Shown here: piece by piece, positions 1 to 61,254 of the stretch
How the letters are laid out: each line of letters begins with the position of its first letter
How positions within the stretch are numbered: the first letter of the stretch is position 1
Assembly: GCA_009733575.1 (NCBI GenBank)
Contig: ML769614.1
Location: 38,026-102,025 of the forward strand
Direction of reading: 5' to 3'
DNA length: 64,000 nt
Source of the DNA: Gymnopus androsaceus JB14
Taxonomy: Eukaryota > Basidiomycota > Agaricomycetes > Agaricales > Omphalotaceae
Notes under the pieces: generated by a model
What the model was told of the DNA's origin: nothing
Databases searched by the model: none
Seen by the model: only the letters and a program-made list of their open reading frames with translations
Translations under genes and position numbers: made by a program

Positions 1-621
1 TGCGTGCCATCATCCATCATGATGAGCAGCAGGGGGATAGGAGATACACCAGTGCGAGGCTGTCGTCGCATCAGACGTTGGGGAGGGCGAGGGGCAGCTT
101 GTCTGCGCGTATCACGGCACCTGTGGCATCGGGAATTTGGCCAGCGTTTTGGTTGTTGCCGCAGGATCCGTTCCAATGGCCTAATGATGGCGAGATAGAC
201 ATTATGGAGGCTTGGAATGGGGATCGCACGAATCATACTTGTCTCCATTGGGGCCATTTCAACGGCGAGGATTGGAATAAACATCGGGTTATCGAGACAC
301 CTATACCTCGTATCGATTCTCCGGGTGGTGTCCGATACGATTTCGCTTGGGATGAGGATGAGAGTACTGGTCAGGAAGGCTGGTGTGGTATATTGATGGC
401 AAAGTGGTTATGAAGGCTTCAAAACCGACGGTACGAGACCTATGAAGGATTTCAGGATCTTGATAAATATTGCTGTTGGAGGCAATGTTTGTCAGGGAGT
501 CATGCCGGCGAATGGGCTTATGAGTTATATATTAGGAGTTGGCTATGTGGGAGGCCCTCCAGGTGGCTGGCAGAGTTTCGACAAGGACTTCAAGGGTGGT
601 AAGGAGGGGAAGACTATGTAA
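1..621 (+). CDS. GH16 family endo-beta-glucanase, 5'-truncated by the window edge, frame broken twice
   Basis: This is the C-terminal part of a secreted glycoside hydrolase family 16 enzyme, a family that cleaves beta-1,3(4)-glucans by retention. Reading starts off-window. The frame beginning at base 3 gives a segment with GIWPAFWLLP and the catalytic motif GEIDIMEAW, with nucleophile and acid/base Glu codons at 192-194 and 207-209. The tail RPMKDFRILINIAVGGN and the stop at 619-621 are typical of fungal GH16. Two frame changes are needed: one near 376-385, before VWYIDGKVVMKAS, and one in the A-run at 421-424, where one extra A would restore the reading. No intron boundary explains them. Either the gene is decaying or the assembly lost bases; the conserved sequence on both sides favours the latter. 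The family assignment is firm and the exact linkage specificity is not. Confidence 0.85.
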
Positions 622-1777
622 AGTGATACTGCTGGTCGGTATTTACCACATATGAGCATGAACAAATCTATTCACTGCACTCAATAGCGTCGCCTGTCTG
701 CTCAACGTCTGTCATCGAAATAGTCTTGTACCACTTGCCGTTATCTCATGGCTCATTGGGAGTTGTCGGAACAGCTAACAAGCTTGATGAATGAAATGTG
801 AAGTCACAAATTGGTATATATAGAAACATCAACATTTTTGAGAGGCAACATCAGCCTCGATGTCCCGAAAACACGCCCAAAACAGTTCTATAAAACCAAA
901 AGGAAACCATCATCAATCATACAGACTCACTAACCGTCTTAACCTGATAAGAAATATGCACCAAAATCCCCTCGTTATTTCCTTGCTTTCCCGTGAACTC
1001 CCCATCCTGCTCAACAATATGTTCCATACTCTCCGTAACGATTACTGTCTCGTGTCAGCGTTGTCTCGTGTAAAAAAGTTGGTAAAGAAATACATGCAAA
1101 AAACCACGCAACAAGCAGCACGGGTCATGGTGACAAAGTTGAGGGATGAAGGTAAGATGGGGCCACTGTAGACTCCTTCGATATCCATCGAATGGATATC
1201 GAAAGCGCCGTCAGTGTTGGTCTGACTCACAGTCGTAATCAATTGATTCAACCCATTTCCAGGGAACAATGTGACTTTCACAGACGTGCCGTTTGTTCCA
1301 TGCATCTGTCCGACTGTACGTTCACTGATTCCTGATCGTTTTCTGCTTTCAGCCCCGCGTGCTTCGGTAACAAGGCAGTCTTTAGCCTTCCTACTCTTAA
1401 TAGACCACATACATCTGTGCACCACTTTCGTTATTGGATAGAACCTCTCCTCCGATACTCCACCAGCAACTCGGTATACTGTACCGATCGGACATGTAAG
1501 TGCCTTTCAGGTCCTGTGCGCGCTTTCGAATAGATCTCCGTCGGCGAAATATATTCTATGACATATACGCGAATAGAAGGTCAGCTACAGCTTTTGCGTC
1601 CGAGTGTAATCTATCATAACATCCAAACTCAAGCGAGAACGTAAATACTCCGACAGGAATTGCAGAGCACTAAATTTTAACAGCAGTTGTATGAAGAGTA
1701 TTTGCAGTGCGACCATACCCCCAGTCACCTTATGATCCTGGCAAAATCTGGCTTCTACTAGGGATCTTGCCGTCAGG
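622..1777. other. Gene-poor stretch, no supported gene
   Basis: Nothing here is convincingly coding. A 127-codon open frame on the minus strand (1042-1425) ends in a hydrophobic Cys/Phe-rich stretch and could be a decayed membrane-anchored protein, but it has no recognisable family. A perfect short palindrome with arms CGATATCCAT and ATGGATATCG lies at 1179-1201. Confidence 0.5.
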
Positions 1778-1786
1778 TATAAATAA
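1778..1786 (+). promoter_or_regulatory. TATA-box-like element
   Basis: TATAAATAA lies 107 bp before the ATG at 1893 and sits in a normal position for a fungal core promoter of the small gene that follows. Confidence 0.45.
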
Positions 1787-1892
1787 GACGACTCTCACAA
1801 TCCTGTATACAGATTCCCCTTATCGTGATCCTCTGCGTTGATTAGACGCTATTCCACAGGATCCAGACATCGACTATACTATCGATCTCACC

Positions 1893-2647
1893 ATGATGAG
1901 CGACGGTGATGATGATTATGGAGAGAAATTTCGGGGTCGTCGACGTAGTCACTCTGCCAGTCGCCGGCGGCCCCAAGTACATCACATTTCAGGAGTTATG
2001 TCAAGCAAAAACCACGAGCTCCAGCCCGATTCTGAGTCCGAGGTGAGGATACAACTCTTACCTACGCCTTCATTAAGGCTTACATTTATTGACTAGGTCG
2101 AATCTTTATTATCCCAGCCTGACGTCGAGAGACGAGGTCGTCCTCGTGGTCGCTCAAAACGTCGACGTCACCGTCAATGTTTATCAGGTGGATCGAGTGA
2201 CTGCGAGCGAGCTTATGGTTCAGAATTTGAGGTACGGATATACTACCTCCAAGTTCTCCCTCATTTCCTGATCATTGGCCAGACCCAGTTTCCTCCGATC
2301 CGGCGGAATGTGAGATTTACCTTGTCTCAAGGTAGAACTGAGAACTGGCCGGGACATACTAACATCTCTGGTGGAAATCAGAGTAGTGTTGGTGGGTCTC
2401 AAAAAATCATTGCAGACCATCGATATCGGCGCAACGATACTCGTAAACATAAGCACGCTAATGTGGTCAACTACGGTGATAATGTTCATATTCACATCCA
2501 TGTTGATCAAGGAAATGCGAAAATTTGGGTTTTTTCTGTGTATGTACAGCTTTCTTTCGAAACGTTCTATGACTCTAACTCATTCTCTGCTCAACTTTTA
2601 GCGGTTTATTTGGACGCGGTGATTCCATGACTATGAGATGTACCTGA
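1893..2647 (+). CDS. Hypothetical Arg/Ser-rich small protein, four exons
   Basis: The family is not recognised. The model is 1893-2042, 2097-2231, 2283-2539 and 2602-2647, with introns of 54, 51 and 62 bp that start GTGAGG, GTACGG and GTATGT and end in AG. All phases agree and it encodes about 195 residues. The N-terminal half is acidic and then rich in Arg/Ser (RRRSHSASRRR, RGRPRGRSKRRRHR), like RS-type nucleic-acid-binding proteins. The C-terminal half carries a His/Val stretch (NVHIHIHVDQGNAKIWVFSV). The first two introns both follow a Ser-Glu-x-Glu codon run ending in GAG, as if the exon were internally duplicated. The third intron is the least certain; without it the frame ends at 2630. 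The gene is preceded by a TATA-like box and followed by pyrimidine-rich DNA. Confidence 0.5.
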
Positions 2648-2911
2648 TACGGAACTCTCGATGGCGCATGTCCTTGGCTCTCACCGCGAAGTTCTTCTTT
2701 TCTTTTTTCCTTTTTCTTCTTCTAAACTGCATCACTTTACTTGTACTGTACTATTAGGACAGATTAGGACAGGCAGACGCGCCTCTGTGCTGTTCTCTTA
2801 AGGCTGTTTTCTTACTCAAGTTTTTCTTTTCTTTTTCCTCCCCTTTTTTTCCTTTCCTTAATTGCATTGCTTCTTCATTCCCTTCTTATTTATTTGTGGG
2901 CTCATGACCGT

Positions 2912-2959
2912 CGAGTTCGGCGAACGAGTTTACTCGAATATACTCGTTCGCCGAGCTCG
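2912..2959. repeat. 48-bp inverted repeat (hairpin)
   Basis: Two 18-nt arms (2912-2929 and 2942-2959) match at 17 of 18 positions around a 12-nt spacer. It lies 16 bp outside the LINE poly(A) tail, so it may be target DNA or the end of another element. The preceding 2690-2870 is pyrimidine-rich and holds two loosely similar blocks followed by a TGCAT-containing sequence. Confidence 0.7.
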
Positions 2960-3467
2960 CCGGGGTCCGCACCGTTTTTTTGTTTTTTTTTTTTTTTTTT
3001 TGCATCCTTGTTTATTGCCCTCTGTCCCGAGGGATATGGTAGGCATTACGCTAAGTCTATATGTAAATATGCGTAGCAATCAAAAATCTATGAGCGTTGA
3101 GAGGTTATACGTGGCAAAGGCTGGAGCCTGCCGGAGCAGGTCTCGAAGCGAACGAGTCGCATGATTATAAGTAGTGCTTCAGGCGGTGAGGCCTGATGCA
3201 AAGTGAATATGGTAAATTAGGTTCTGCCAGCTGCGAGGCCTGGTATGAGGCTAATAAACTGAGTAGATTTGGTGCTCATCCATGAGCCCACCTAGCTCCG
3301 CCTATCTCCAGGCCCCCATTCATCCACCCCCAACCTCATCATTGTCCTTTCCTATCGGTGGTAGCATTCCTGTAGATGTGTCTGAAGCGTCCTGTGGAGT
3401 TGATGAAATTGAATAATGGAGTGAGGGATTTTTCATTGTCTAGTAGTCCTCTGAGCATCATCTTCTC

Positions 3468-3670
3468 TGTAACGTCCCCAATCCCTGATCGGCAGAACCT
3501 CAGTCTTTACAGGCGGCAGTGCGTTCCCGCGCCTGCCAATAATCTATATTATAATAATTATATATTAGATACCTTAGCTTTTAACCATCACCTTGCGAGT
3601 ATACCTGAATAAATCCAGTAGTACTCGTTGGTGATAATAAGGCTCTAGGCTCCATTTAGGAGCCATTACA
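3468..3670 (+). repeat. 5' LTR (203 bp)
   Basis: It aligns to the 3' LTR but lacks an internal block of about 70 bp, between GAGTATAC and AATAAATCCAGTAG. It carries the shared AT-rich core and AATAAA. Most of the roughly 13 differences over the first 135 bp are transitions. Confidence 0.9.
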
Positions 3671-3675
3671 CTTTT

Positions 3676-6600
3676 TTGAGTACCTGTGTACTCTTCAGCA
3701 ATCCCCGCGAGATGCCGAGTTACAACAACTCAGGTTACAGTGATGTGGTAAACATCGCCAATAACCATTACTGGAATTGCTATGGCAATTCCAACAATGA
3801 CAATGTTTTTAACATCGTCAACTGTTCAAAAAAGATTCACAGTAGTGAATCTGACAACAGTGACCGTTCTTGCATCACTGGTGCCAGTGCATGCACAGGC
3901 ACAAACAATTTTAAGCCTGACTTGCGTTGGGCTGGAAATAACAATGTTCAGTCTGAACATTCTAATGTGGCCTCGACCACACTTGAATCACCGTTTGGTT
4001 TACACCAAATTGGTAATTTTTTTCAGCAGTGTGTGGAAAGCCAAAAGGCCCTCCGTGAGCTTTCAAAGTTCACGGAAATGTTAGCAAATGCTAACATAAC
4101 AGGGTTTACTCCTCTGGGAGACATTCCATACCGGAGCATTAGAGATACTGATGGTGATGGCAGCCCAGCTATGGCTGGACAGGCACAAAGCCTTGCAGTC
4201 ATCCCTGCACACCTGAAGGTGAATATTCACCTCCAGGTGACTCTCTGACACCTCCAGTGTCCTCGTCTCCCGCTCCTGCTCCTCTTCCTCAACTCCCTTC
4301 ATCTCCCACACCTCCCTCTTGTGCCCAAGAAATTGGAGATACCCAATTCCCTGACCAGGGAATTGTAAATTGGGATGGAACTAATGACAATGTTTATAAC
4401 ATTGTCAAACCGAGTCATTTTCATGACTCGGTGCCCCAGGATGCATCCCACATCATACCTCAGCTTGACTCTAGTCAAGCTGAACGTCTATACATTCATT
4501 CCGAATGTTTTGGCGCAGCTCCTGTTGTGCCTTATTCTCAAATTGGGTTAAAAACTCAAATTGGGAAGACACCGAGTCATTTTCATGACTCGGTGCCCCA
4601 TGATGCATCTTGCATTGTGGAAAACACACCCCAGCTCGACTGCAGTCAAGCTGACACTTGATATGTTCATGCTGAACATTCTGGCATGACTCCGGTTACG
4701 CCTAATTCCCAAATTGGATTAAAGCCTCAATTTGGGAATTCTTCTCAATTGTGTGCTTCTGCACATGAAACAAGCTTTCATGATGTTCCTCACATCATGA
4801 AGAACTTGTCCCAGCTCGACAGGAGTTGAGCTGAATCCCCTCACATTCCCCTGGAACGTTCTGGTGTGGTTCTAGCCCTGCCAAATTCACGGATTGGATT
4901 AAAAACCCAATTCGGGAATTCTTCTCGATCATGTGGTTCTGCACACGATTCAAGCCCCATGATGTACCCCGCATCATGAAAAACTCGCCCCAGCTTGATT
5001 CTAGTCAAGCTGATCCTCAACATATTCAAATTGAACGTTTTGGTGCAGCAGGAGCTGCACCGAATTCCCAAATTGGGTCTAATACCCAATTCGGGCAGTC
5101 ACCAAGTTGTGAAAACAGCTCAGTGACCCACAATGCTCCCCGCATCATGCAAAACCAATTCCAGCTCAACTATAGCCAAGCTGGTCCCTTCTACATTCAT
5201 ACTGAATGCATAGGTGTGGCTCTGGCTGCACCTGATTCCCGAATTGGGCTAATACCTCAATTTGGGAATTCTAGTGCCAGCGCACATGCTGGCACAAACA
5301 AGCTCCAACCCAATTTACATTGGGCTAATGGCAATGCTATTCGCATTGCCAAACCAAACAAGTCAAAACTTCAATCACCAATCAGGTCATCCCAATACGA
5401 TGGTTTCTTTGAAGCATGTGCAAAAGCACAGGCCACAAGCCAAAAGGCTCTCCATGAAATTTCGGAGTTCACAGAAAATTTTCTGCTCAACTCTGATAGC
5501 AATGTTCGTTACATTGCCAAACCAAGTTGTTTTCACAACCCAGCGCTTAATAAGACCAAGGGCCCTGTCCTGGGCACCTGCACATCTGAAGGTGAAGTTT
5601 CACCACCAGATGAGACTCTGACACCTCCCCCTCCAGTTCCTCTTCCCACTCGTGCCCCTCCCCTTTGCATCAATCCACACCCTGGATCAATTCAAGAGGT
5701 GAGGTTCACTCCTTGGAAGGCCATGCCTTCCAAATTGACAGTGGTACACACTATCACTGTAAATTCATGTTTTGGCACAGCCAGGCCCTCAAAAAGGGAC
5801 TGGATGGACCGAGTCACTGCCCAGCGACTCTGTGAACAGGATCTCCAAGATATTGGAGATTTGCAATTCCCTGATCAGGGAATTTTTTTCAATGTCAACG
5901 GGTACCCTGTCATCAAATTACTGGACAGTGGTAAAGACCCACCGTCCAGAAATTGTGGGGGACAAATCCATTGTGGACTACAACAGATTTCTGAAACTTG
6001 TGGAGCAAGCTCAAAACATGTACAATGTTCACAAGCAAGCTTTTTTTCTTTTTGAGAGGGGGAGAGCCAATGTAGAAATACACTAGCTCACTCTATATCT
6101 CAAGTATGTGGGATTAAAAATCCCTCAAAACACGATTTGCCAGAGGATTGGGTATGGTACATCCAGATGTACCCCAACCAATGTCCTACTGGCATAAAGT
6201 ATGATCACAATGATCACACTCTCACCCGTAATGTACAGGGATGGTTACTAGTAAGTAACCATGCCCAGTTATAGCAGTGGGGACTTTCAAGGTGAAGCAG
6301 CATTGCTTCACCTTATGAACAGCGGAGTTGTTCACAACTCCAGGACTTTACACATCCATTACCGGATGTGATGAGACAAATATTGTCTTGAATATTTCAA
6401 CATCACCATATGCAGGTGACATTGATAATGCTATGTTGGATGATGTAGCCTTTTTTTATGCCTCCCAAGGCATTACCATTGAAATGGCAAAAGACATAAC
6501 TGTCTTTGCCCTTCAGTGGTTGACTATGTTCCGTACAATGGACCCTAGTCTTGGATGCAAGTTACATGCAACATGTGACTGTGTTCTTCACTCCTGTTTC
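3676..6600 (+). pseudogene. Coding-like interior of the LTR element, several open frames, function unknown
   Basis: Consecutive open frames cover most of the interior: 3676-4248, 4257-4661, 4931-6055, 5772-6086 and 6328-6603, in different phases, the first without an ATG at its 5' end. They share phrases such as SQKAL(R/H)E(L/I)S(K/E)FTE and SHFHDSVP(Q/H)DAS, so they derive from a repeated coding-like ancestor. A Pro-rich linker (TLTPPPPVPLPTRAPP) and a WMDRVTAQRLCEQDLQDIGD segment look protein-like. No family is recognised. It could be a decayed gag-like or captured host gene, or coding potential may be a by-product of the repeats. Confidence 0.45.
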
Positions 6601-6700
6601 TGAATACATGGCACGCTACCATGCATTCAAAATCCCAGGATATATTCACAACACGCTATTGTGAATATGTTCCCAACTTCAACTATCAAGTTGAAGTTCT
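3742..6700. repeat. Dense array of short perfect hairpins
   Basis: Arms of 5-13 nt with loops mostly of 1-6 nt follow each other every 20-50 nt. Examples are TGGAATTGC/GCAATTCCA (3772-3793), AATGTTCAG/CTGAACATT (3943-3961), ATGTTAGCA/TGCTAACAT (4078-4097), AGGTGAAT/ATTCACCT (4217-4232), CAATTCCCTG/CAGGGAATTG (4344-4365), ACCGAGTCAT/ATGACTCGGT (4409-4432 and 4571-4594), CAGCTTGACT/AGTCAAGCTG (4461-4482), AATTCCCAAATTG/CAATTTGGGAATT (4704-4740), GGTGCAGC/GCTGCACC (5042-5061), GTGCCAGC/GCTGGCAC (5274-5295), GGCAATGC/GCATTGCC (5330-5350), GGTACATC/GATGTACC (6156-6173), ATGGTTACT/AGTAACCAT (6241-6262), AGGTGAAGCA/TGCTTCACCT (6290-6313), GGAGTTGT/ACAACTCC (6324-6341) and CACATCC/GGATGTG (6351-6370). 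Confidence 0.93.
4461..5330 (+). repeat. Five-copy tandem repeat, 171-180 bp period
   Basis: The hairpin CAGCTTGACT/AGTCAAGCTG or a variant recurs at 4461, 4632, 4812, 4991 and 5162. Each copy carries the same order of other hairpins: CATTC/GAATG-type, CCCAAATT/AATTTGGG-type, and ATGATG/CATCAT-type. Copies differ at many sites, so the expansion is old. Confidence 0.9.
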
Positions 6701-6797
6701 CACAAATATGCTCCAGCTGGGTTGACATGCTATCAAACCAGTTGGGGACCCCCCTTCCTCTTCTATTGGACTGTAGGCTCAATCTGGCTAGGGAGGG

Positions 6798-7072
6798 TGT
6801 AACGTCTCTGATCCCTGATCGGCAGGACCTCAGTCTTTACAGGCAGTGGCGCATTCCCACGCCTGCCAATAATCTATATTATAATAATTATATATTAGAT
6901 ACCTTAGCTTTAAACTATCACCTTGTGAGTATACGTGCTGCAAATTGATTCACCCATTAGTCCTATTCAGTAGCCATTCAGTAGTCATGTACATCAGCAC
7001 TGTACTGAAATAAATCCAGTAGTACTGTGTGCATGATATTAAGGCTCTAGGCTCCATTTAGGAGCTGTTACA
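6798..7072 (+). repeat. 3' LTR (275 bp)
   Basis: It starts TGTAAC and ends GTTACA, a perfect 6-bp terminal inversion. It includes an AATAAA polyadenylation-like signal and the 70-bp block missing from the 5' copy, so this is the fuller LTR. Element boundary and TSD agree exactly. Confidence 0.92.
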
Positions 7073-10000
7073 TTCTCTCTGCTAACCTCCAATTGTAACT
7101 GTGCTCGAGCTCCCCTATGAGCTGGGCACTGTAGTAAATAATGGAAGGTTGTTTCTGGTGCCTGAGCACAAGTCGGGCAGTCTGATGACTGCACTTTCCC
7201 AATGCAATTTAGATGGCAGTAAAGGTAATTGTGACCTGTTCATAGCTGGACCAGGATGCTTGTGTGTTTTTTGGCCAGACCCATTGCCATCTTCCTGAAC
7301 CTTCTAGCCACCTCTGTTGCATCTCCCTTTGCCACCTTCTGAAAATCCAAATACCAGGGTGAACATCAAAACATGGTGTTGTGAAGAACATTTAAGGCTT
7401 TTGCAAATGTCTTCTGGGCTGCTGAACAGCTCACCGGAAGGAATTTTCATAGGCATCCAGGTAAGCTGGCTTTTGGGCTTGACCCATATAGCGTCAGCAC
7501 CCTTAGCTTCCTTATCCACTGCCTCATTCCCCTCAACACCTTCATGTTCCGGAACCTATCCAACCGTGATTTCCATTTGTGAGTGGTAGCGTTTGACTTG
7601 GTATAGAAATGTGTGAAAGTGGTCTATTAGGTAGTGAGCCGGGCCTGGTAAGTTTGATCCAGTTGCAGCAATTGCAGATGTGTTGTCAATCCATATTGAG
7701 ACTGCTTTGACTTTGCCTCTCTCTTTCCTTTGCAACAACTCCAGTCCCAGCATGGGGCCGACCAATTCTGCTTTGAATACTTCATGCTCCTTCTCTGATC
7801 CCAGGCCTAGCTTCAGTGATGCCACCCTCTCTCCATCCCTATACAAAACTGCAGCTGCTCCAACTTTTCCCTCAACCCCTGATCCATCCATGAAGATTTG
7901 GTATTTTGCTTCATCTTCCTCTACCTGTTTTATTGCACCTTCCCTATCCTTCCATCTCCTAACAGTCACCTCTGATTTCTACCCCACCGCATGTTGCACT
8001 GCTTGTCACTTCTCCATTACCCTCAGGTTGAGTTTGAAAGAGTTCATGAGATCATGAAGTGTGGAAAAGTGTTTTTTGATATATCAAGTAGAGGCCTTTT
8101 GTGCTAGGGATTTAAGGGGGTAGCTGAGCGGAAGTGAAGCAATGCAAACTGCTGTGCATTGTTGAACTTTGTCAATTGCAAGTGACATTGGTAAAAGTCC
8201 TGAGTGGATATCTAGGAGGTCTGTGAGAGTTGATGGTAAGGCTCCAGTGATGATGATTGAGGCTTGGCATTGGATGAAAGCCAGTTTAGATACAATTGCT
8301 TGACCTGGTTTGTTGCAAACACTGCTGTCCTTCAACTGCATTCCTGGGTGTTGTTGAGGAGCTAAAAAGACATCTGCAGCATATAACATGCTGTTCATCA
8401 ATATTGCAATGTACCACTTGCGCACATGCTCAGCTGCCACCCCTCCTACAGTTCAAGACAGTCTATGGAACTGTGAGAGCCATGTCTGACCCTTCTGGAT
8501 CACCACTGCTGCCTGTTCCTTGAACTGTAGCTCGCTATCCAGAAAAACCCCCAGTAATTTCACTCTGTCCTTTCTTTTTATCTCTTCATTCCCTACCCTG
8601 ATTGATCCCCCCTTATTAGTACCATCTTCTGCTGTATTGTTGGATGCTGCATGTGTTTGCATGTAAAGTCTGAAAGCTGGAATTTGTCTAAACCAAAGGA
8701 GCAGTTGTGGTTAGTCACTCATTCCATTACCCTACCTGGATCATTCATCAGCTGCTCAAGCCGCCTGTGCGTTTCCAAGAAAGATGTGGCCCAGGTTATC
8801 AAAATGGAGTCATCAACAAATAAAAGACCTAGTTCATCCGCCTTGTTGCAGATGACTTTGAGAAGTCCACTGTTGTAAAAGATGTACTGTACCTCTGCAA
8901 ATGGGTCACCCTGGTTGAGACTTCCTGGCGGTTGAAATGCCTCTGTAGCATAGTCATTGAATATGATACTGAGTCTTCTGTCTCTTATACCACTGTTCTA
9001 ACTAATCTGTAATCTCTTTTGGTACTCCTGCTATACATAGTTCATCTTGAAGCATGGGTAGGTCAACACTGGGATATGCTCTTTTGACATTGAGAGCCAG
9101 TGCTGAAACCACTTTTCCCTTCCTTCATGCCTGTTTAATAGTCAATACAAAGAGATGAAGAGAGTTGGTCATGCTACTGCCCGGTCTGCCTCCAAATTGT
9201 AGCAGTGGTAGGAGTCCCCTGAGCTTGGAATGTTTGATAATATTATCCGCTACCATGCTGCTTAGTAATTGTGGGTGTCCATCTGAAATTATGACTGGGT
9301 GTGATGATCCTGGTTGTTTGTAGTTAGTTTTACCTAGCTTGTGTAACACAATAGTTTAGTTGAGCAGCCAGTGGGGTGGATAGTATCTAAGTGTGAAGGT
9401 AGCCCTGTATAGAGGCCCTAGATGAGGTACTAAGAATTCATTAGCTTTCAAAAAGAGGATATTCAGGATCGTCCCTGGTTTCATTGCCTTATATGGTTTC
9501 ATTCTTCTAATTGCTGCTGCAATCTGGTGGTTCTGAGGTGGCTGAAACAACCACACCTCCGCTGGGTACTCAACGTCATCTGGTACCAGCAAAACTTCAG
9601 GAGCACAAGGGAAGAAGGCAGACTTGAAGGCCTCTGCCTTGTCCTTATTGCTCATCAAACACCTTGTCATGTCATCCACCTCCCTCACTTCCAACTCAGA
9701 AACATGGACTACTGCCCCTATCACTGAAGCCGCATTGTACCATTTTGGCTGCACCCTACTTATTGGACTTTTTCAGACCCTCCAAGTAAGTATCCCAGTA
9801 CTCCTTCTTGGCCTGTTCCATCTCTCAAGACAAGTCCTGTTGCAACCTCTGATACTCCTCATGTATTGGATCTTCTGGTAGGTGTTGTTTGAGGTGAGAT
9901 CGTTTGCCAGATTCTTCTTCCAGCTATTCCAGATCTTCACCTCATCCATGTACCATCAACAAGCAAATGGAAATGGCTTGACCATTGGTACATATTCCTT

Positions 10001-19967: not shown

Positions 19968-22900
19968 ATGGGCTCCTCGTAAGTAAAATTTATTCAAAAG
20001 CAGATATTGATTAAATGAGTCATGGTATCCATAGTCACCAAATGCTACCTTATGCTTCAAACTTTCAAATCTACAATTCAGTTTTCACCACTGGGGTCAC
20101 TCATGTTACATATATTGGACCTCATGTGACTCAGGATGCAAGCCAAGGTACTTGGACTCTACAAACTGTTGGATCATGAATGATGACTGATTTCAAAATT
20201 TACTCAGATCACGGATTCTCACTTTCAAATGTTCTCAAGTGCCTTGCCCCTAGTCAGTACTTTGTGGGACGTGAGGACACATTGGGAAAACTTTCAAATA
20301 TATTTCTGGAACCATGCATAACTCTCTGGAGTACAAATACAGAGGTGATCCGGGATTTTGTAACAAACCATCTTAAATCCAGACTTAACTTCAAATAGTG
20401 AGTTTGGTCTTGAATTCCAAAAGATAAAATGTGAGCTAAATATATTGTATCCATCTTGTAGCCCCTGTATTTTTTTGGATGCAAGCTCTACTCAGGCATT
20501 AAATGCAGCATTTGCAGACAAGATCAGAGAACATGATCTTCCAACAAAATTCCTTCTAGTGTTGGAAAATGCAAATGGATCTGTAGTGGAAGATTATATT
20601 CATAATCTCCCCCACTCTCCTATTCTTGTGACAAGCACAGAGCCAGCTATTCAAAAATTGGCATCATTTACTGCTTTCAAATTTCAACTTCCTGATGGTG
20701 CCAATCAGCAAGAAATGCAGAAGGTGCTGGGATCCATTGAGAAAGTCCTTGAGCCTAGGCAACGGGTTGCAACTCTTGTGGCGAATGGAGGAACTGGGAA
20801 AACCCAGATAGTTCTTCAATTTGTTACCAACAGCACTTCCAGGTTAGAATCAGTGATTCAAAACTTTGATTGATAGTTAAAAGATTTTCACAGATTTTCC
20901 AACATTTGGTTCTTTGATGCTGCCTCCAATGACACTCTTGCTGCCAATTTTAAAGAGCTTGGCAGTGCTGCAGGTGTTGGTGAAGGAGTGAAGCAAGTCC
21001 GGGACTTTTTGGCAAGAATGAATCAAAATTGGCTTTGCATTTTTGACAATGCAGATGACAAACAGGTTATCCTCAAAGATTATATTCCAAGTTGCAGTCA
21101 TGGCAATGTGATTGTTACAAGTCGCCTTAAAGAGACATTACAAATGGCATCACCAGAATGCCACATTGACCTCAGTGACCTTAAGAGGGAGGATGCCATT
21201 GAATTACTCTTGAAGCATTCACACAATGAGAGATCTGAGGAAAACCAGAAATCTGCTATCCACATTGTTGATGCTTTTGGGTGTCATGCTCTTGCTATTT
21301 CAACAGCTGGTGCATACATTGGCATAACCCCAACATGTACACTGGAAAATTACTTGACACATTTCAATAAGAAAAGCACCAAGATTCTCAATTATAAAAC
21401 AAAATCACTGGATGCCTACCAACTAACTGTATTTGATGCATTTCAATTGAGCTTTGATAAACTTCATCATCCAACTCAGTATTTGATGCAAATCTGTGCA
21501 TATCTGCATCCAACTTATATTCCTATTGAGATATTCGCTCGCGCAGCTGCTTTTACTGGTAGTGATACTAGTTCCATTGATTTGAATCCTCCAACTGAAG
21601 CTATAAATGTATTGGAGAATTTTCTGTCCCTATTTTTAGGAGAAGACTCATGGGAAGACAGTGTAGTTGAGCTATGTCAATTATCACTGGCCTCTTATGA
21701 TGATGATAAGAAATATTTGGCATTTCATCCAGTTATGCATAAATGTGCCAAAGAAACTATTGTAAATCAGGAGTATATGAGACAGACAGTAATGTTACTG
21801 CTTGGACGGGCTACTCCACTTGGAAGACTGATTGGAGACCAAAGATTCTATCACCGAATATTGATTCAGGCCAGTTCAATTCAGATAAATGATTTGCCTA
21901 CTTTCCATGCAAAAATTTGCCTTTCAAGGGTTTTTTGGGAAAATGCTTCATGGGAAAATACTGAGAAGTTGGAAGAGGGAATGCTTGAGCAGTACAGGAA
22001 CATACTTGGAGAGCAGCATCCTCATACATTGACTTCAATGCACAACCTTGCTAGTACATATCTTGAGCAAAGAAGGTTGAATGTAGCACAGCAGCTTCTA
22101 GAACAAGTCATTGCACAGCGCAAGGAAGTGCTTGGTGACTCCAATGGTGAGCACCATTCTGATATATTGGACTCAATGAATAACCTTGCTAGCACATATC
22201 AGCTGCAAGGAAAGCTGGATGAAGCTCAGCAGCTTCAGGACCAAGTGCTTGAAAAGCGGAAGGAAGTGATTGGTGAGGCCCATTCTGATACATTGACTTC
22301 AATGAGCAACCTTGCTGTTACATATCAACTCCAAGGAAAGTTGGATGCAGCTCAGCAGCTTCGAGAGCAAGTGCTTGCAAAGCGCAAACAAGTGCTTGGT
22401 GAGAACCATCCTGATACATTGGCTTCAATGAGCAACCTTGCTGTTACATATTCTGCACAAGGAAAGCTGGATGCAGCTCATAAGCTTCAGGAGAAAGTTG
22501 TTGCACAGTGCAAAAAGGTGATCGGAGAGCACCATCCCAATACATTGCATTCAATGAGCAACCTTGCTGCTATGTATTATGCACAAGGAAAAGTGGATAT
22601 AGCTCAGCAACTTCAAGAGCAAGTGTTTACACAGTGTGTGCAAGTACTTGGTAAGCACCATCCTGATACATTGGCTTTAATGCACAACCTTTCCAATACA
22701 TTTCATGGGCAAGGAAAGTTGGATGCAGCTCAGGAGCTTCAAGAGCAAGTCCTTTCACTGCGCAAGCAAGTACTTGGAGACCACCATCCAGATACATTGA
22801 CCTCAATGAACAGCCTTGCTATTACATATTATGAACAAAACAAGCTGAATATGGCACAGCAACTTCTAGAGCAAGTCTGCGCACAATACAAGCTATTGCT

Positions 22901-24146
22901 TGGGGACCACCACCATCCCGATACATTGAGTGCAATGAACAACCTTGCTAGCACATATCTTAAGCAAATGAGGGTGGATGCAGCGCAGCAGCTTTTAGAA
23001 AAAGTTGTTGCAAAGCGCAAGGAGGTACTTGGTGAGCACCATCCGGATACATTGGATTCAATGAACAACCTTGCCAGTATATATCAACTGCAAGGAAAGC
23101 TGGATGTAGCTCACCAGTTGCGAGAGCAAGTGCTTGCACAGCGCAAGGAAGTAGCTGAAGAGCAGCATCCTGATACCTTAACTTCAATGAACAACCTTGC
23201 TGCTACATATTTTGAGCAAGGAAATCTGGATGCAGCTTATAGCCTGCTAGAGAAGGTTGTTGCATTGCGCAAAGTGGCCATTGGAGAGCATCATCCTTAT
23301 ACCTTGGGTTCAATGAATAACCTTGCTATTGTATATCGTGATCAAGGGAAGCTGGAAGCTGCTCAGCAGCTTCTAGAGCAAGTTCTTGCACAACGCAAGG
23401 AAGTGCTTGGAGAACAGCATCCTGACACATTGACTTCATCTCACTACCTTGCTATTACATATATGTCACAAGGAAAGCTGGATGCTGCTCTACATCTTCA
23501 AGAGGAAGTTGTTGCCAAGCGCAAGGGAGTGCTTGGAGAGCAGCATCCTGATACATTGACTTCGTCGAATGTCCTTGCTCTTGTGTATCAGAATCAGGGA
23601 AAGCTTGATGCCACCCAGCAGCTCCAAGAGCAAGTCCTGGCACAGTGCAAGGAAGCACTTGGGGAGCACCATTCTCTTACACTCGCTCTAATCCACAACC
23701 TTGGTATTACATATCGTACACAAGGGAAGCTGGATGTTGCTCAGCAGCTTCTAGAGCAAGTCATTGTGAAGCGCAAGAAGGTCCTTGGAAAGCAACATCC
23801 TCATACATTGAAATCAATGACAAATCTTGCTCAAACATATCATCAGCAAGGCAAAGTAGATGCAGCTCACCAGCTTCAGCAAGAAATTGAAAATATCAAC
23901 TTGCTTCAAAAAAGTTTATGCAGTTCAGTACCTGTCCATAAACTCCAAATGCCTAGTACTCAAACCTGTTACAATACACTCTCTTATCTGCTTTTTGCCC
24001 TTATCATTTTCTTTGTTGTTTTTCTTATGTTTTACCTTACTTATCAGGGCATATGGTACTATGAAATCACACTACAAGGATATTTCATATCCTCAGCTGC
24101 TTGCATCATGCTAGCATATTGCATTTACCATTACCATGGAAATTAG
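19968..24146 (+). CDS. STAND/NLR-like protein: degenerate NB module, NB-ARC, 15 TPRs, C-terminal membrane segments
   Basis: Exons are 19968-19978, 20035-20147, 20208-20397, 20462-20842 and 20894-24146. Introns are 56, 60, 64 and 51 bp, all GT-AG, phases agree, and the protein is 1315 residues. After a short N-terminal segment (SNFQIYNSVFTTGVTHVTYI) comes a module with the NB-ARC landmarks YFVGREDTL, CIFLDASS, FLLVLENA and SPILVTST, but without a P-loop (LWSTNTEVIRDFV instead). A second module has a proper Walker A (VATLVANGGTGKTQIVLQF), IWFFDAAS, Walker B (NWLCIFDNAD) and GNVIVTSR. Then come a winged-helix-like region and 15 kinesin-light-chain-type TPRs of 42 residues (HPDTLTSMNNLAxTYxxQGKL). 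The end has two hydrophobic segments (YLLFALIIFFVVFLMFYLTY and YFISSAACIMLAYCIYHY). Such proteins are nucleotide-switched receptors; the ligand and effector are unknown. Confidence 0.92.
22017..23888 (+). repeat. Coding tandem repeat, 126 bp x 15 (TPR)
   Basis: Fifteen 42-codon units remain highly alike at DNA level, for example the recurrent CAAGGAAAGCTGGATG. Unit 1-2 and unit 7-8 junctions carry extra codons (DSNG; one additional His). High identity invites unequal recombination and copy-number change. Confidence 0.9.
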
Positions 24147-57992: not shown

Positions 57993-59300
57993 GTACTCAA
58001 TCATATTAGAATGGGATACCCGTTTCGATATGATACCCAAATATATATTCTTTGAAACCTCAATACGTTTCGCTCAAGATAGTGGTGCTAGTGGTACCCT
58101 CAGACGTGCATTGTCCAGCTGGTTGATCGGACGGATGAGCATCGGTTATAATGTGGACGGATGTGTTCTATTGGATGCATAATTCGATGTTTGTTGTGGC
58201 ACGACACCGGACTGTATGAGCAAGTTCTCAGATTGTGGTATACATAACGGCAAGCCAATGGACCCTGGGCTGGACTCCTTCCTTTTTGATACCCTCACCT
58301 AGCATGAGACTATATCACCAATTGGAATCTTTGTCACCTCTTGCTAATACCTCATGTTGTGGAGAACTAGTTGCTGACATAGCAATAGCCAAGCTTCCTG
58401 TGCAAGAGCCACAGGCCTAAGTTACAGGCATCATCACATCAGAATCTTAGCTAGCATGTCCAAAGAAGATCTCTCCTCAAGCATTCCTCAAGCAAAAAGG
58501 ACACATTGCTCACTGGCAGGTGAGAAAACAGGGACAATTCAACCAGGATCTATCATCTAACCAGAGACCTTCTGTGAAAAGAAGGTCTCAAATTCCTGCA
58601 CAGGAGTATTGGAATGTAAGACTTATATGATAATCACTACACTGTTGGACCTTAGATGTACAAATACTTCTATTGATAGACCTGTTGCAGTGCTTGCTTG
58701 GAAGTTAATGCTTTTGTGAAAAATTGTAATTCAATTTTTCAAGCAAGTTGCTTCTTGGAAATGGTCAGTGCAAGGGGTGCTCAAAAAAATAAGCACTGAC
58801 ATGACCTTGGGGGAGGGGGGTTCTGAGAAGTCCTTATAGCCAAGAAATTTTTCATACTATTGAGGCTCTGAGGGGTGTTCTAGGTCAACTCAACCACTGA
58901 AATAAGGCTGTAAAAACCATTTAAAGCACTCAACATCTCAAATCTCCCTGAGAAACATGGATTTTATAGGATATGATGCAATTTAGCACCTCCATCAAAA
59001 AATATTGTCAATGCAAGTGCACTTACATCAGGTTGAATTGAAGTTAGATGAACTGCTGTGTATTAAATTGCCTCTGGAAATGTTGTTCAAAGGTGCAAAG
59101 GAGAAAAAATTGTTATTTAATACAAATTTGAAGTTGGAAATCCTCCAAAGTGCGGGAAAATTTTACTATATATAGGTAATAGAAGGGTGGGGGACTTCAG
59201 GAATCCTTATGACCCAAAAACAAGGTCATTTTGGGGCTTAGTGGGTTGAATACATACCCCTTGGGCCAGTGACAATTAAATCACCACAATGATCAGAGAA
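57993..59300. other. Gene-free DNA with small palindromes
   Basis: No gene is supported. A hairpin (GACCTTCT...AGAAGGTC) lies near 58566-58590. The region is AT-rich, contains no recognisable domain, and forms the left flank of the Tc1 insertion. Confidence 0.45.
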
Positions 59301-59302
59301 TA

Positions 59303-60588
59303 CTTGGGCCCACGGAAAGTGACGGCCCGGTGACATGTGGCCGCATTGGGATGTCAAAAGTTTGCTTAATTTTTGTACACTACTACTCTGTAAATTACAA
59401 TGACACGCGTACAACACGACTCCCCAAAGAAAAACAGGCTCATAGGTGCTATACAGACTGGAAGCACCATCTCTGCAGCTGCTGAATATGTCGATATTCC
59501 ATACGAGACTGCGAGGAAAATCTGGGCCAAATTTAAAGCAACAGGTAGCACATCGAATCGTCCCCGCAGCGGCCGCCCCAAAAAAGTTACTGAACGAATG
59601 GAACATCAGATGGTCCGAAAGGCACGAAACAGCCGTCGTAAAACATCCAAGGAGATTGGAAATGAACTTGTTCCAAAAATCGGTGCCACAGCCGTTCACG
59701 AGCATCTGGCGGCGGCAGGATACCATCGACGGGTTGCACGAAGGGTTCCATTCTTGAAGAAGAACCAGAAGATGAAGAGGGAAGCTTGGGCATGAGATAT
59801 AAGGGGAGCAGACTGGTCAAAAGTGATTTGGTCGGATGAGAGTTACGTGTTTATGGGTGACATGCAAGGTCGCATCTTTGTCACACGTCGTGAAGATGAA
59901 GAATTCGAAGAGGATTGCTTGATTCCAACATTCAAGCAATCTAGTGTGTGTGTCATGGTGTGGGCATGTATTATGAAGGGTCAGAAGGGTCCGCTAGTTG
60001 TGCTGGAATATCCGGGAGGGAAGGGAGGAGGAATTACTGCAAAGATTTATCAGGAGCAGGTTTTGGGGGCGGCATTGTTGGATTTCTGGAGTAAAATGGA
60101 GTCAGAGAGGGGAGATGTCAAGTTTCAGCATGATGGTGCACCTAGCCATAAAGCAAAAACGACGACAAAATGGCTTGCAGACCATGGCATCCCTCTCTTC
60201 CCACACCCGGCATCTTCCCCCGATGCTAATCCCATCGAGCAGGTCTGGCACGAGCTCAAAACTGGTATCCGAGCTCTGCCACATCATCCTTCATCTGTTC
60301 CAGAGCTTATCGCGGCAGTCCGGAAAGTTTGGGAGGGTATTCGCATTGAAGATGTTGACAAGTATGTGAACCAGATGGACAGGATTGTTGATGCAATTAT
60401 TGATGCAAATGGTGGCCATACTCAATTTTAAAGCTTGACAGTTATTGCATTTGTTCACTCGTAGTTGTATATAAAACATGAATATCATAGCTTTGGGATA
60501 GAGATGAGGGGAGATGAAAAGCGGTGAGCAGCACAAACAAAAAATTCGCGTCCCGGCCCAGCGGGCCGTCACTTTCCGTGGGCCCGAG
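59303..60588 (+). mobile_element. Tc1/mariner DNA transposon, 1286 bp
   Basis: The inverted termini are 27 bp with one mismatch, beginning CTTGGGCCCACGGAAAG at the left (59303) and CTCGGGCCCACGGAAAG at the right (complement of 60588). The TA duplication lies at 59301-59302 and 60589-60590. It encodes one transposase with a single internal stop. Confidence 0.93.
59400..60431 (+). pseudogene. Tc1/mariner transposase (DD34E), one in-frame stop
   Basis: The N-terminal helix-turn-helix region (STISAAAEYVDIPYETARKI, RPRSGRPKKVTERM) and C-terminal catalytic core contain the first Asp in VIWSDES, the second in FQHDGAPSHKA and the Glu in NPIEQVW, with 34 residues between the second Asp and the Glu. 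The reading frame is continuous from 59400 to 60431 except for TGA at 59793-59795 between REAWA and DIRGADWS. This is probably a Trp codon change (TGG to TGA). Apart from that stop it looks complete, so inactivation is recent. Confidence 0.9.
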
Positions 60589-60896
60589 TATTAAATAAGA
60601 TTTGAAAGATTTGAAGACTATCAATTTGGAGTTACTTATTCTGTTATGGGCTATGAGAATTGACACTAAGTATGGACCATGGTTAGTTCAACTTGAAAAT
60701 GGACCAAGAATTACATTATGTCAATGAATGTGCCACTGTTTGGACCAAGTTCCCACATCTGCAAGATGTAATATGATCATTCAATTATTGGTCCAGCATT
60801 CAACCTTGCCTCAGATTTTCTTCACAATTCAACTGGAAATACTTACTTTAAGTACTAAGTATAGTTTTATAAACAATGGAACTTTGGTCAAAACAT

Positions 60897-61254
60897 CATC
60901 AGCAAAAACTGTTTGAGCCCAGGAGGATCTGAGGTCTCCTAGGCCTCTTAGGCAACCTGAGGCAGCCCAGGAAAAAGGGCAAAACTTTGGACACCTCAGG
61001 TATCCTAGTCATCCTAGGTGTCCTGAGACATCCTGAGACATCCTAGGACATCCTGTGATGTCCTGGGGCATATCTCAGGATGCCCCAGGATGTCCTAGGA
61101 TGTCTCGGGATGTCCCAGGACACTTAGGATGACTAGGATACCTGAGGTGTCCAAAGTTTTGCCCTTTATCCTGGGCCAACTAGGATGCCTCAGGTTGCCT
61201 AAGAGGACTAGGTGACCTTGAATCCTCCTGGGCCCAAAACAGTTTTTTCTGATG
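60897..61254. mobile_element. 358-bp long-palindrome foldback element
   Basis: It starts CATCAGCAAAAACTG and ends CAGTTTTTTCTGATG. The two halves of about 175 bp are nearly complete inverted copies, for example GGACACCTCAGGTATCCTAG and its complement, with arms of CATCCT/AGGATG repeats. It shares terminal bases with the CATCAGCAAAACC elements but has a different interior. It has no coding capacity. Confidence 0.88.

Follow-up and report, generated by a model that had tools for sequence, protein, structure and literature searches.

Short palindromes tiling the reading frame of an LTR retroelement family in Gymnopus androsaceus, and template switching as their possible origin

Why should the interior of a retroelement be tiled with dozens of short hairpins, and how did their arms come to pair? 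The question is raised by a long terminal repeat (LTR) element of ∼3.6 kb at positions 3468–7072 of a 64,000-nt stretch of DNA (the window: contig ML769614.1, positions 38,026 to 102,025, of assembly GCA_009733575.1) from the basidiomycete Gymnopus androsaceus JB14, whose genome measures 83 Mb. The element is a member of a large family there; the span 3742–6700 gave at least 132 matches in its own genome, a lower bound with 40 of 97 candidates scored. The best explanation we can offer, to which we give roughly even credence as a whole, is that the window element belongs to a non-autonomous LTR retroelement family that carries a gene, of which it is a decayed copy, and that a template-switching polymerase in the copying cycle made the hairpins, and perfects them, within a weakly constrained gene.

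Hairpins in the window copy and its family

An initial annotation, made from the letters of the window, reported more than 25 short hairpins in 3742–6700, and shuffling upholds it: this span holds 32 non-overlapping perfect hairpins with arms of at least 7 nt and loops of at most 10 nt (all loops are 0–7 nt), against a mean of 2.36 in 100 dinucleotide shuffles (maximum 7) and 2.34 in 200 (maximum 9). With arms of at least 8 nt there are 25 against 0.5, and with at least 9 nt 16 against 0.1. The background of the window (1–3467 and 7073–57500) is 0.78 per kb, with 0.51 after shuffling. The start of the array, put at 3742 by the same annotation, moves upstream, as tiling begins at 3678 in the leader; over the initial 270 nt of the interior hairpins stand almost end to end. 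Its statement that the array is confined to the interior holds for arms of at least 7 nt, of which the LTRs of the window copy have none (loops up to 10 nt), but not for shorter arms: 6-bp hairpins (one of 7) reach 11.2 per kb against 2.1 shuffled in 19 family LTRs, which are related and represent few independent hairpin sites.

Other copies carry the paired arms too. Thirty-seven loci were fetched (L009–L045), of which L017, L018, L020, L026, L029, L030, L032, L033 and L041–L044 were left out as incomplete; the 25 others and the window copy give 26 interiors, every one of which shows an excess (7.6–13.9 hairpins per kb, 10 shuffles per copy). In the young copy L024, 68 hairpins (arms of 6 without mismatch, or of 8 with one) take up 36% of the bases. 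Young and old copies are separated by our own cut at a CpG observed/expected ratio of ∼0.6; this ratio runs from 0.23 to 0.84 among L009–L045, and its higher values tend to go with more hairpins, in the manner of a CpG-decay clock. A far relative on contig C119, which resembles the family mainly in leader, start and repeat motif, has 15 hairpins in 2,010 nt where 1.5 are expected.

A retroelement with an orphan reading frame

The LTR element of 3.6 kb with a 5-bp target-site duplication that the initial annotation described is confirmed, with LTRs, the duplication TTCTC and a polypurine tract all in place (Table 1); the long terminal direct repeats end in TG...CA, as in LTR retrotransposons. 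Among other copies with both ends read, 10 of 11 have a matching 5-bp duplication (L024 has none), and LTR pairs are 91–99% identical in 20 of 21 (the exception, L013 at 77%, is probably mis-delimited). The polypurine tract GGGAGGG is kept in other copies and in the far relative L072. The 3′ LTR holds a 71-nt insertion, at 6938–7008, that its 5′ partner lacks and that may reflect either later insertion or a mixed template.

The leader CTTTTTTGAGTAC is conserved, but it lacks the TGG of a tRNA primer site at the 5′ LTR junction, so self-priming or another primer would be needed; inspection by eye only gave no convincing self-priming or internal-tRNA site. Alternatives to tRNA priming occur in some known LTR families, and the missing TGG lowers, without removing, the assignment to LTR retrotransposons. 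The absence of a recognisable polymerase, also claimed at the outset, agrees with four open reading frames (ORFs) taken from four other copies, one apiece: no Pfam family scored over the cut-off in them, and neither gag nor pol matched, leaving them without the gag-pol of a Sirevirus-type Ty1/copia element.

A reading of the element as lacking any coding capacity has to be given up, since its interior is a decayed reading frame. One forward frame of L024 runs over 1061 codons with 2 stops, where the other two contain 40 and 77, open plus-strand frames of 888, 705 and 689 aa persist in the younger copies L027, L013 and L028, and the window copy is still open at 3649–4248 and 4835–6055. The frame starts with an ATG 41 nt past the 5′ LTR and stops ∼195 nt before the 3′ LTR. 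In a sister copy it is annotated as BT96DRAFT_1004193; NCBI has a 979-aa prediction from the contig of L024, and a 581-aa metagenome protein with the same start is 93% identical to this prediction over their alignment. Protein relatives come down to a pair of G. androsaceus records and a single metagenome protein. The predicted protein, with its repeat units of ∼58 residues, had no PDB sequence match at E ≤ 1 and no PHROGs match at E ≤ 0.1, and AlphaFold gave no usable model from a three-row alignment (mean predicted local distance difference test score 29.5, predicted template modelling score 0.21); the putative product is an orphan.

Variants found in a single copy are distributed as expected without constraint (521 non-synonymous and 177 synonymous, outside CpG). 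Those common to at least four copies comprise 128 non-synonymous and 80 synonymous changes, by our arithmetic ∼0.65 of the neutral ratio, so constraint on the predicted protein is weak but probably present. Perfect inverted repeats lie, then, inside a predicted frame that is open far beyond chance and mildly constrained in its shared variants. When the synonymous codons of L024 were permuted with the protein kept, its hairpins fell from 45 to 4.8 (maximum 11 in 200 permutations; dinucleotide shuffles, 2.0), which makes the palindromes a property of the nucleic acid and not of the protein; the 45 are spread over all three codon registers (24, 12 and 9).

Origin of the paired arms

The history of the arms was followed in an alignment of 24 copies (L021 and L025, with large insertions, being omitted), which contains 66 helices and 592 pairs. 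Its cells comprise 10,810 with the commonest pair, 155 with another Watson–Crick pair, 556 G.U, 575 A.C, 365 other mismatches and 1,747 gaps. Nine old copies, dominated by decay since insertion, have 20 double changes where 16.7 are expected under independent arms (163 of 1000 reach 20), a result near independence from which it follows that integrated copies are not visibly re-perfected. Fourteen young copies have 10 against 5.3 (25 of 1000), and L045, a copy from an earlier-split subfamily, has 17 against 3.1 (0 of 1000). Arms thus change together before insertion and decay separately after it, and it is in young copies that palindromes are closest to complete.

Coupled change is seen at greater distances too. 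Over the first 270 nt of 13 diverged members, 39 cells are changed on both sides against 21.0 shuffled (0 of 500), and covariation is 0.166, where shuffling gives 0.136 and slid partners no more than 0.085. Between repeat units (7 of 26 copies used, without rows ending _609), 437 of 528 cells pair against 397 shuffled (maximum 413 of 1000), with 16 extra pair types against 12.2 (maximum 18). In the far relative L071 the second hairpin keeps its loop TACG while three pairs have changed on both sides.

A second kind of change is the loop that is reverse-complemented between conserved arms. It occurs in six of the 66 helices, four of them clean (at most one residual mismatch) and two weak, and in 3 of 1980 random windows; inversion of the spacer only explains five, and complement-only or reverse-only change explains none. 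Several inversions are each private to a single copy. Loop inversion and arm homogenisation are treated as products of template switching in work on yeast and on rRNA (PMC8604942, PMC8794818), and the family has both marks, inverted loops with intact arms and coupled change of the two arms.

The process could run as follows. The DNA polymerase of the copying cycle would repeatedly switch template inside imperfect inverted repeats, copying one arm from the other and sometimes inverting the loop, so that quasi-palindromes would be perfected faster than point mutation destroys them; after insertion they would decay arm by arm. Most simply the polymerase would be a reverse transcriptase borrowed from another element, an identity that we infer from timing alone. 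Because the encoded protein is weakly constrained, palindromes could have spread through the frame as a by-product, and would not be a packaging signal. Carried further, and in a form that we hold only tentatively, somewhat short of an even chance, this becomes a palindrome ratchet: cycles of retrotransposition perfect quasi-palindromes by template switching until a weakly constrained gene drifts to largely hairpins, the palindromes reshaping the protein instead of being shaped by it, and the genomic copies keeping a record of before and after.

Several results weigh against template switching in the copying cycle. Inverting a loop requires the opposite strand to be copied, a step that comes less easily to reverse transcription than to chromosomal replication; of the six inversions, two are based on a single copy each and leave two residual mismatches, and none of the control windows was palindromic. 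Most two-sided changes are transitions, some of which CpG decay can mimic, ready-made hairpins could be transferred by recombination between units, and a few helices of L045 appear misaligned. For the 13 diverged members the structure was derived from the same sequences, and two of the five covariation measures are unremarkable (two-sided pairs 15 against 12.0, 56 of 500; pair types 47 against 47.0). The genome has at least 150 RVT_2 and at least 150 rve matches, none linked to the family. Pieces of Copia-bearing DNA have little excess (2 hairpins against 1.4 in 2.2 kb, 3 against 1.0 in 1.25 kb), so hairpins are not a general property of elements here. Finally, measured against shuffles, folding is stronger for the plus strand than for the minus strand in four of four copies.

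This last result bears on selection for a plus-strand RNA, an unlikely though not negligible alternative, in which a compact genomic RNA, or one with many stem-loops on display, would be favoured for packaging by a borrowed Gag, for dimerisation, for control of translation or for escaping RNA interference, and compensatory mutation would keep the pairs. Plus-strand folding is strong (in each of four copies the mean z lies between −7.6 and −8.6, with 12 shuffles for each window), coupled changes are found only before insertion, and the leader hairpin shows a G.U step and its double change. Three hairpins of the 3′ untranslated part keep the loop CACGCTA (CATGCTA once; loops at 6612, 6652 and 6726) on unrelated stems, and might form a protein or primer site before the 3′ LTR. 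On the other side, no common loop motif was found over the ORF hairpins, raw folding energy is lower for the minus strand in three of four copies, and G.U pairs are rarer in the plus-strand fold than in shuffles (0.06–0.08 against 0.10). G.U and A.C mismatches are about equal in the 24-copy alignment (556 and 575) and in the diverged set (65 and 62), with 6 G.U, 4 A.C and 11 others fixed inside helices and 33 G.U to 23 A.C between units; the mismatches have no RNA-strand signature, there is no clear excess of G.U over A.C, and this wobble symmetry does not support a functional plus-strand RNA. Arms are substituted about as often as other positions (0.080 against 0.083 in old copies, 0.063 against 0.060 in young ones), and inverted loops are not predicted by such selection. 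As a separate candidate, a multi-site packaging signal read through a common loop was rejected, CACGCTA being common to only the three 3′ hairpins.

The initial annotation had offered three origins. Strand-switching synthesis is the best supported, by arm changes coupled before but not after insertion, by the inverted loops and by the lack of a G.U excess. A packaging or dimerisation structure and a Dicer substrate are left without direct evidence: nothing in 3400–7150 matches Rfam at the gathering score, arms are no better conserved than the remaining positions, and the hairpin stems are short for Dicer. Folding of the interior RNA, which it had recommended, gave the strong plus-strand fold described above.

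That a host chromosomal polymerase switched template on integrated copies, or that units recombined, with no part for retrotransposition, appears quite unlikely. Template switching between short inverted repeats is documented for yeast chromosomes (PMC8604942), the private inversions would suit it, internal units repeat and partly swap, and hairpins are mildly enriched in the DNA beside nine copies (1.49 against 0.56 per kb). Against it stand the independent decay of arms in old copies and the near-background level of the rest of the window. About as unlikely, in our estimate, is selection on DNA hairpins, whether extruded from single-stranded cDNA or chromosome for plus-strand priming, protecting cDNA or binding protein as palindromes. 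Pairing is indeed strand-symmetric and mostly Watson–Crick, short hairpins occur in the LTRs too, and Sirevirus LTRs have palindromic repeat boxes (PMC2829016); yet the hairpins have dozens of different sequences with no single motif, they run through a coding frame, and the inverted loops suggest a mutational process. Hardly credible is the last alternative, that the hairpins follow from encoded amino-acid repeats: such repeats exist and permuted codons keep more hairpins than shuffles do, but the permutation test (L024 only) rejects it, and the hairpins use every codon register and go on into the 3′ untranslated part.

For the polymerase that template switching in the copying cycle calls for, an autonomous partner was sought through the shared leader; none was found in 11 places outside the main copy list, partly read, nine of which are diverged family members or similar starts. 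L067 and L068 were rejected from the family as chance matches. On C119 an RVT_2 match lies 3.5 kb downstream of a family member, and this candidate partner was rejected because the member has its own 3′ LTR end; by our reading of the translation a Copia-like integrase sequence starts right after that LTR, so the polymerase is the neighbouring element's. The far relative there (L071/L072), with its own LTR ends and hairpins, looks as if inserted into or beside a Copia element. At C484:11240–17353 (G000) a family copy is split by ∼6 kb of DNA with Copia-type integrase and reverse transcriptase matches in a 1240-codon open frame. In the diverged subfamilies L059–L066, leader and start codon are those of the family but the LTR ends differ, and internal segments are shuffled where read far enough.

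Elsewhere in the window, 20877–24143 is an open frame of 1089 aa, largely tetratricopeptide repeats, and 59299–60592 is by our reading a Tc1/mariner-like transposon (inverted repeats of 34 nt, alike at 94%; frame 59796–60428 with a DDE_3 match). The stretch at 61–62 kb is hairpin-rich with no sign of family membership; at 60912–61238 lies an imperfect palindrome of ∼330 nt, with 130-nt arms 83% complementary and a 10-nt tandem repeat, resembling a miniature inverted-repeat transposable element.

Table 1. Features of the element in the window copy
Feature	Position	Strand	Remarks
Target-site duplication, left copy	3463..3467		TTCTC
5′ LTR	3468..3670	+	203 nt, TGTAACG...ATTACA
Leader	3671..3711	+	CTTTTTTGAGTACC...; hairpins start with GAGTAC/GTACTC at 3678; tRNA primer site of TGG type absent
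Array of short perfect or near-perfect hairpins	3678..6740	+	32 with arms ≥7; 66 helices in 24-copy alignment
Decayed reading frame	3712..6603	+	ATG 3712, stop TGA 6601–6603, by comparison with L024
Hairpin	3993..4010	+	Both arms at once set window copy and L015 apart from 16 copies, including A-T to T-A
Internal repeat units of ∼58 codons	4458..5278	+	About six own hairpins each
Hairpin, inverted spacer	4776..4802	+	Loop TCCTC here, GAGGA in 10 others; TCCTC-type in 12 copies by orientation
Hairpin	5039..5064	+	Loop AGGA in window copy only; inverted TCCT in others
Hairpin	5526..5539	+	Loop TTTC in most copies having the hairpin; inverted in L015
Hairpin	5964..5990	+	Loop AAC in most copies; inverted in L039, L045
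3′ untranslated part	6604..6797	+	
Polypurine tract	6791..6797	+	GGGAGGG, adjoining 3′ LTR
3′ LTR	6798..7072	+	275 nt, with 71-nt insertion relative to 5′ LTR
Target-site duplication, right copy	7073..7077		TTCTC

Known systems and significance

Non-autonomous LTR elements (TRIM, LARD and gene-carrying types) have LTRs, a target-site duplication and a polypurine tract and lack a polymerase; the Gymnopus element carries a long orphan frame. We know of no palindrome-tiled element among them, and none was found described in the literature searched, which left most subscription journals outside its coverage. The element combines an ordinary LTR build with an extraordinary sequence texture of probably mutational origin.

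The closest published case is that of the coding palindromes of nematomorph mitochondria, where many perfect inverted repeats also lie inside coding genes; for these the authors propose repeat conversion, perhaps by way of template switching, and not a function (PMC6649704). There the genes are mitochondrial housekeeping genes and the longer repeats have arms of up to 284 bp (PMC6649704), whereas here a nuclear LTR element has arms of ∼6–15 bp in the frame of an orphan protein, and a contrast before and after insertion that separates formation from decay. Template-switch mutation in yeast (PMC8604942) and rRNA (PMC8794818) has in common with the family arm homogenisation, multi-base compensatory change and loop inversion; the events reported are scattered over genes, whereas in Gymnopus a single 3.3-kb element holds ∼60 hairpins.

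Palindromic amphipathic repeat coding elements (PARCEL) likewise show tandem protein repeats of unknown function, coding DNA with dyad symmetry and, in some taxa, a link to mobile elements (PMC2996958). They have one 25-residue DUF285-like motif (PMC2996958), whereas the Gymnopus protein has units of ∼58 residues and non-repeat regions, with different hairpins throughout; no such motif appeared in the four ORFs, where no Pfam family exceeded the cut-off. In the Rickettsia palindromic elements, palindromes are read in frame inside proteins. Palindromes inside proteins link these elements, named in both papers (PMC2996958, PMC6649704), to the present case; they are copies of inserted elements whose arm identity is lost with time (PMC6649704), whereas the Gymnopus hairpins are of many different sequences. 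Sirevirus boxes too are palindromes in LTR elements, repeated with a CGG-CCG core, mainly in LTRs and thought regulatory, and they do not tile the interior (PMC2829016).

The origin of perfect stems with compensatory changes is an open question of RNA evolution for which template switching has been proposed (PMC8794818). With one genome, dozens of copies and ∼60 hairpins, formation before insertion and decay after it can be separated, and the Gymnopus family offers a natural assay for template switching. It also carries a warning that covariation and strong folding alone do not prove a functional RNA. If selection were the true cause instead, this would be the most densely structured coding retroelement known to us.

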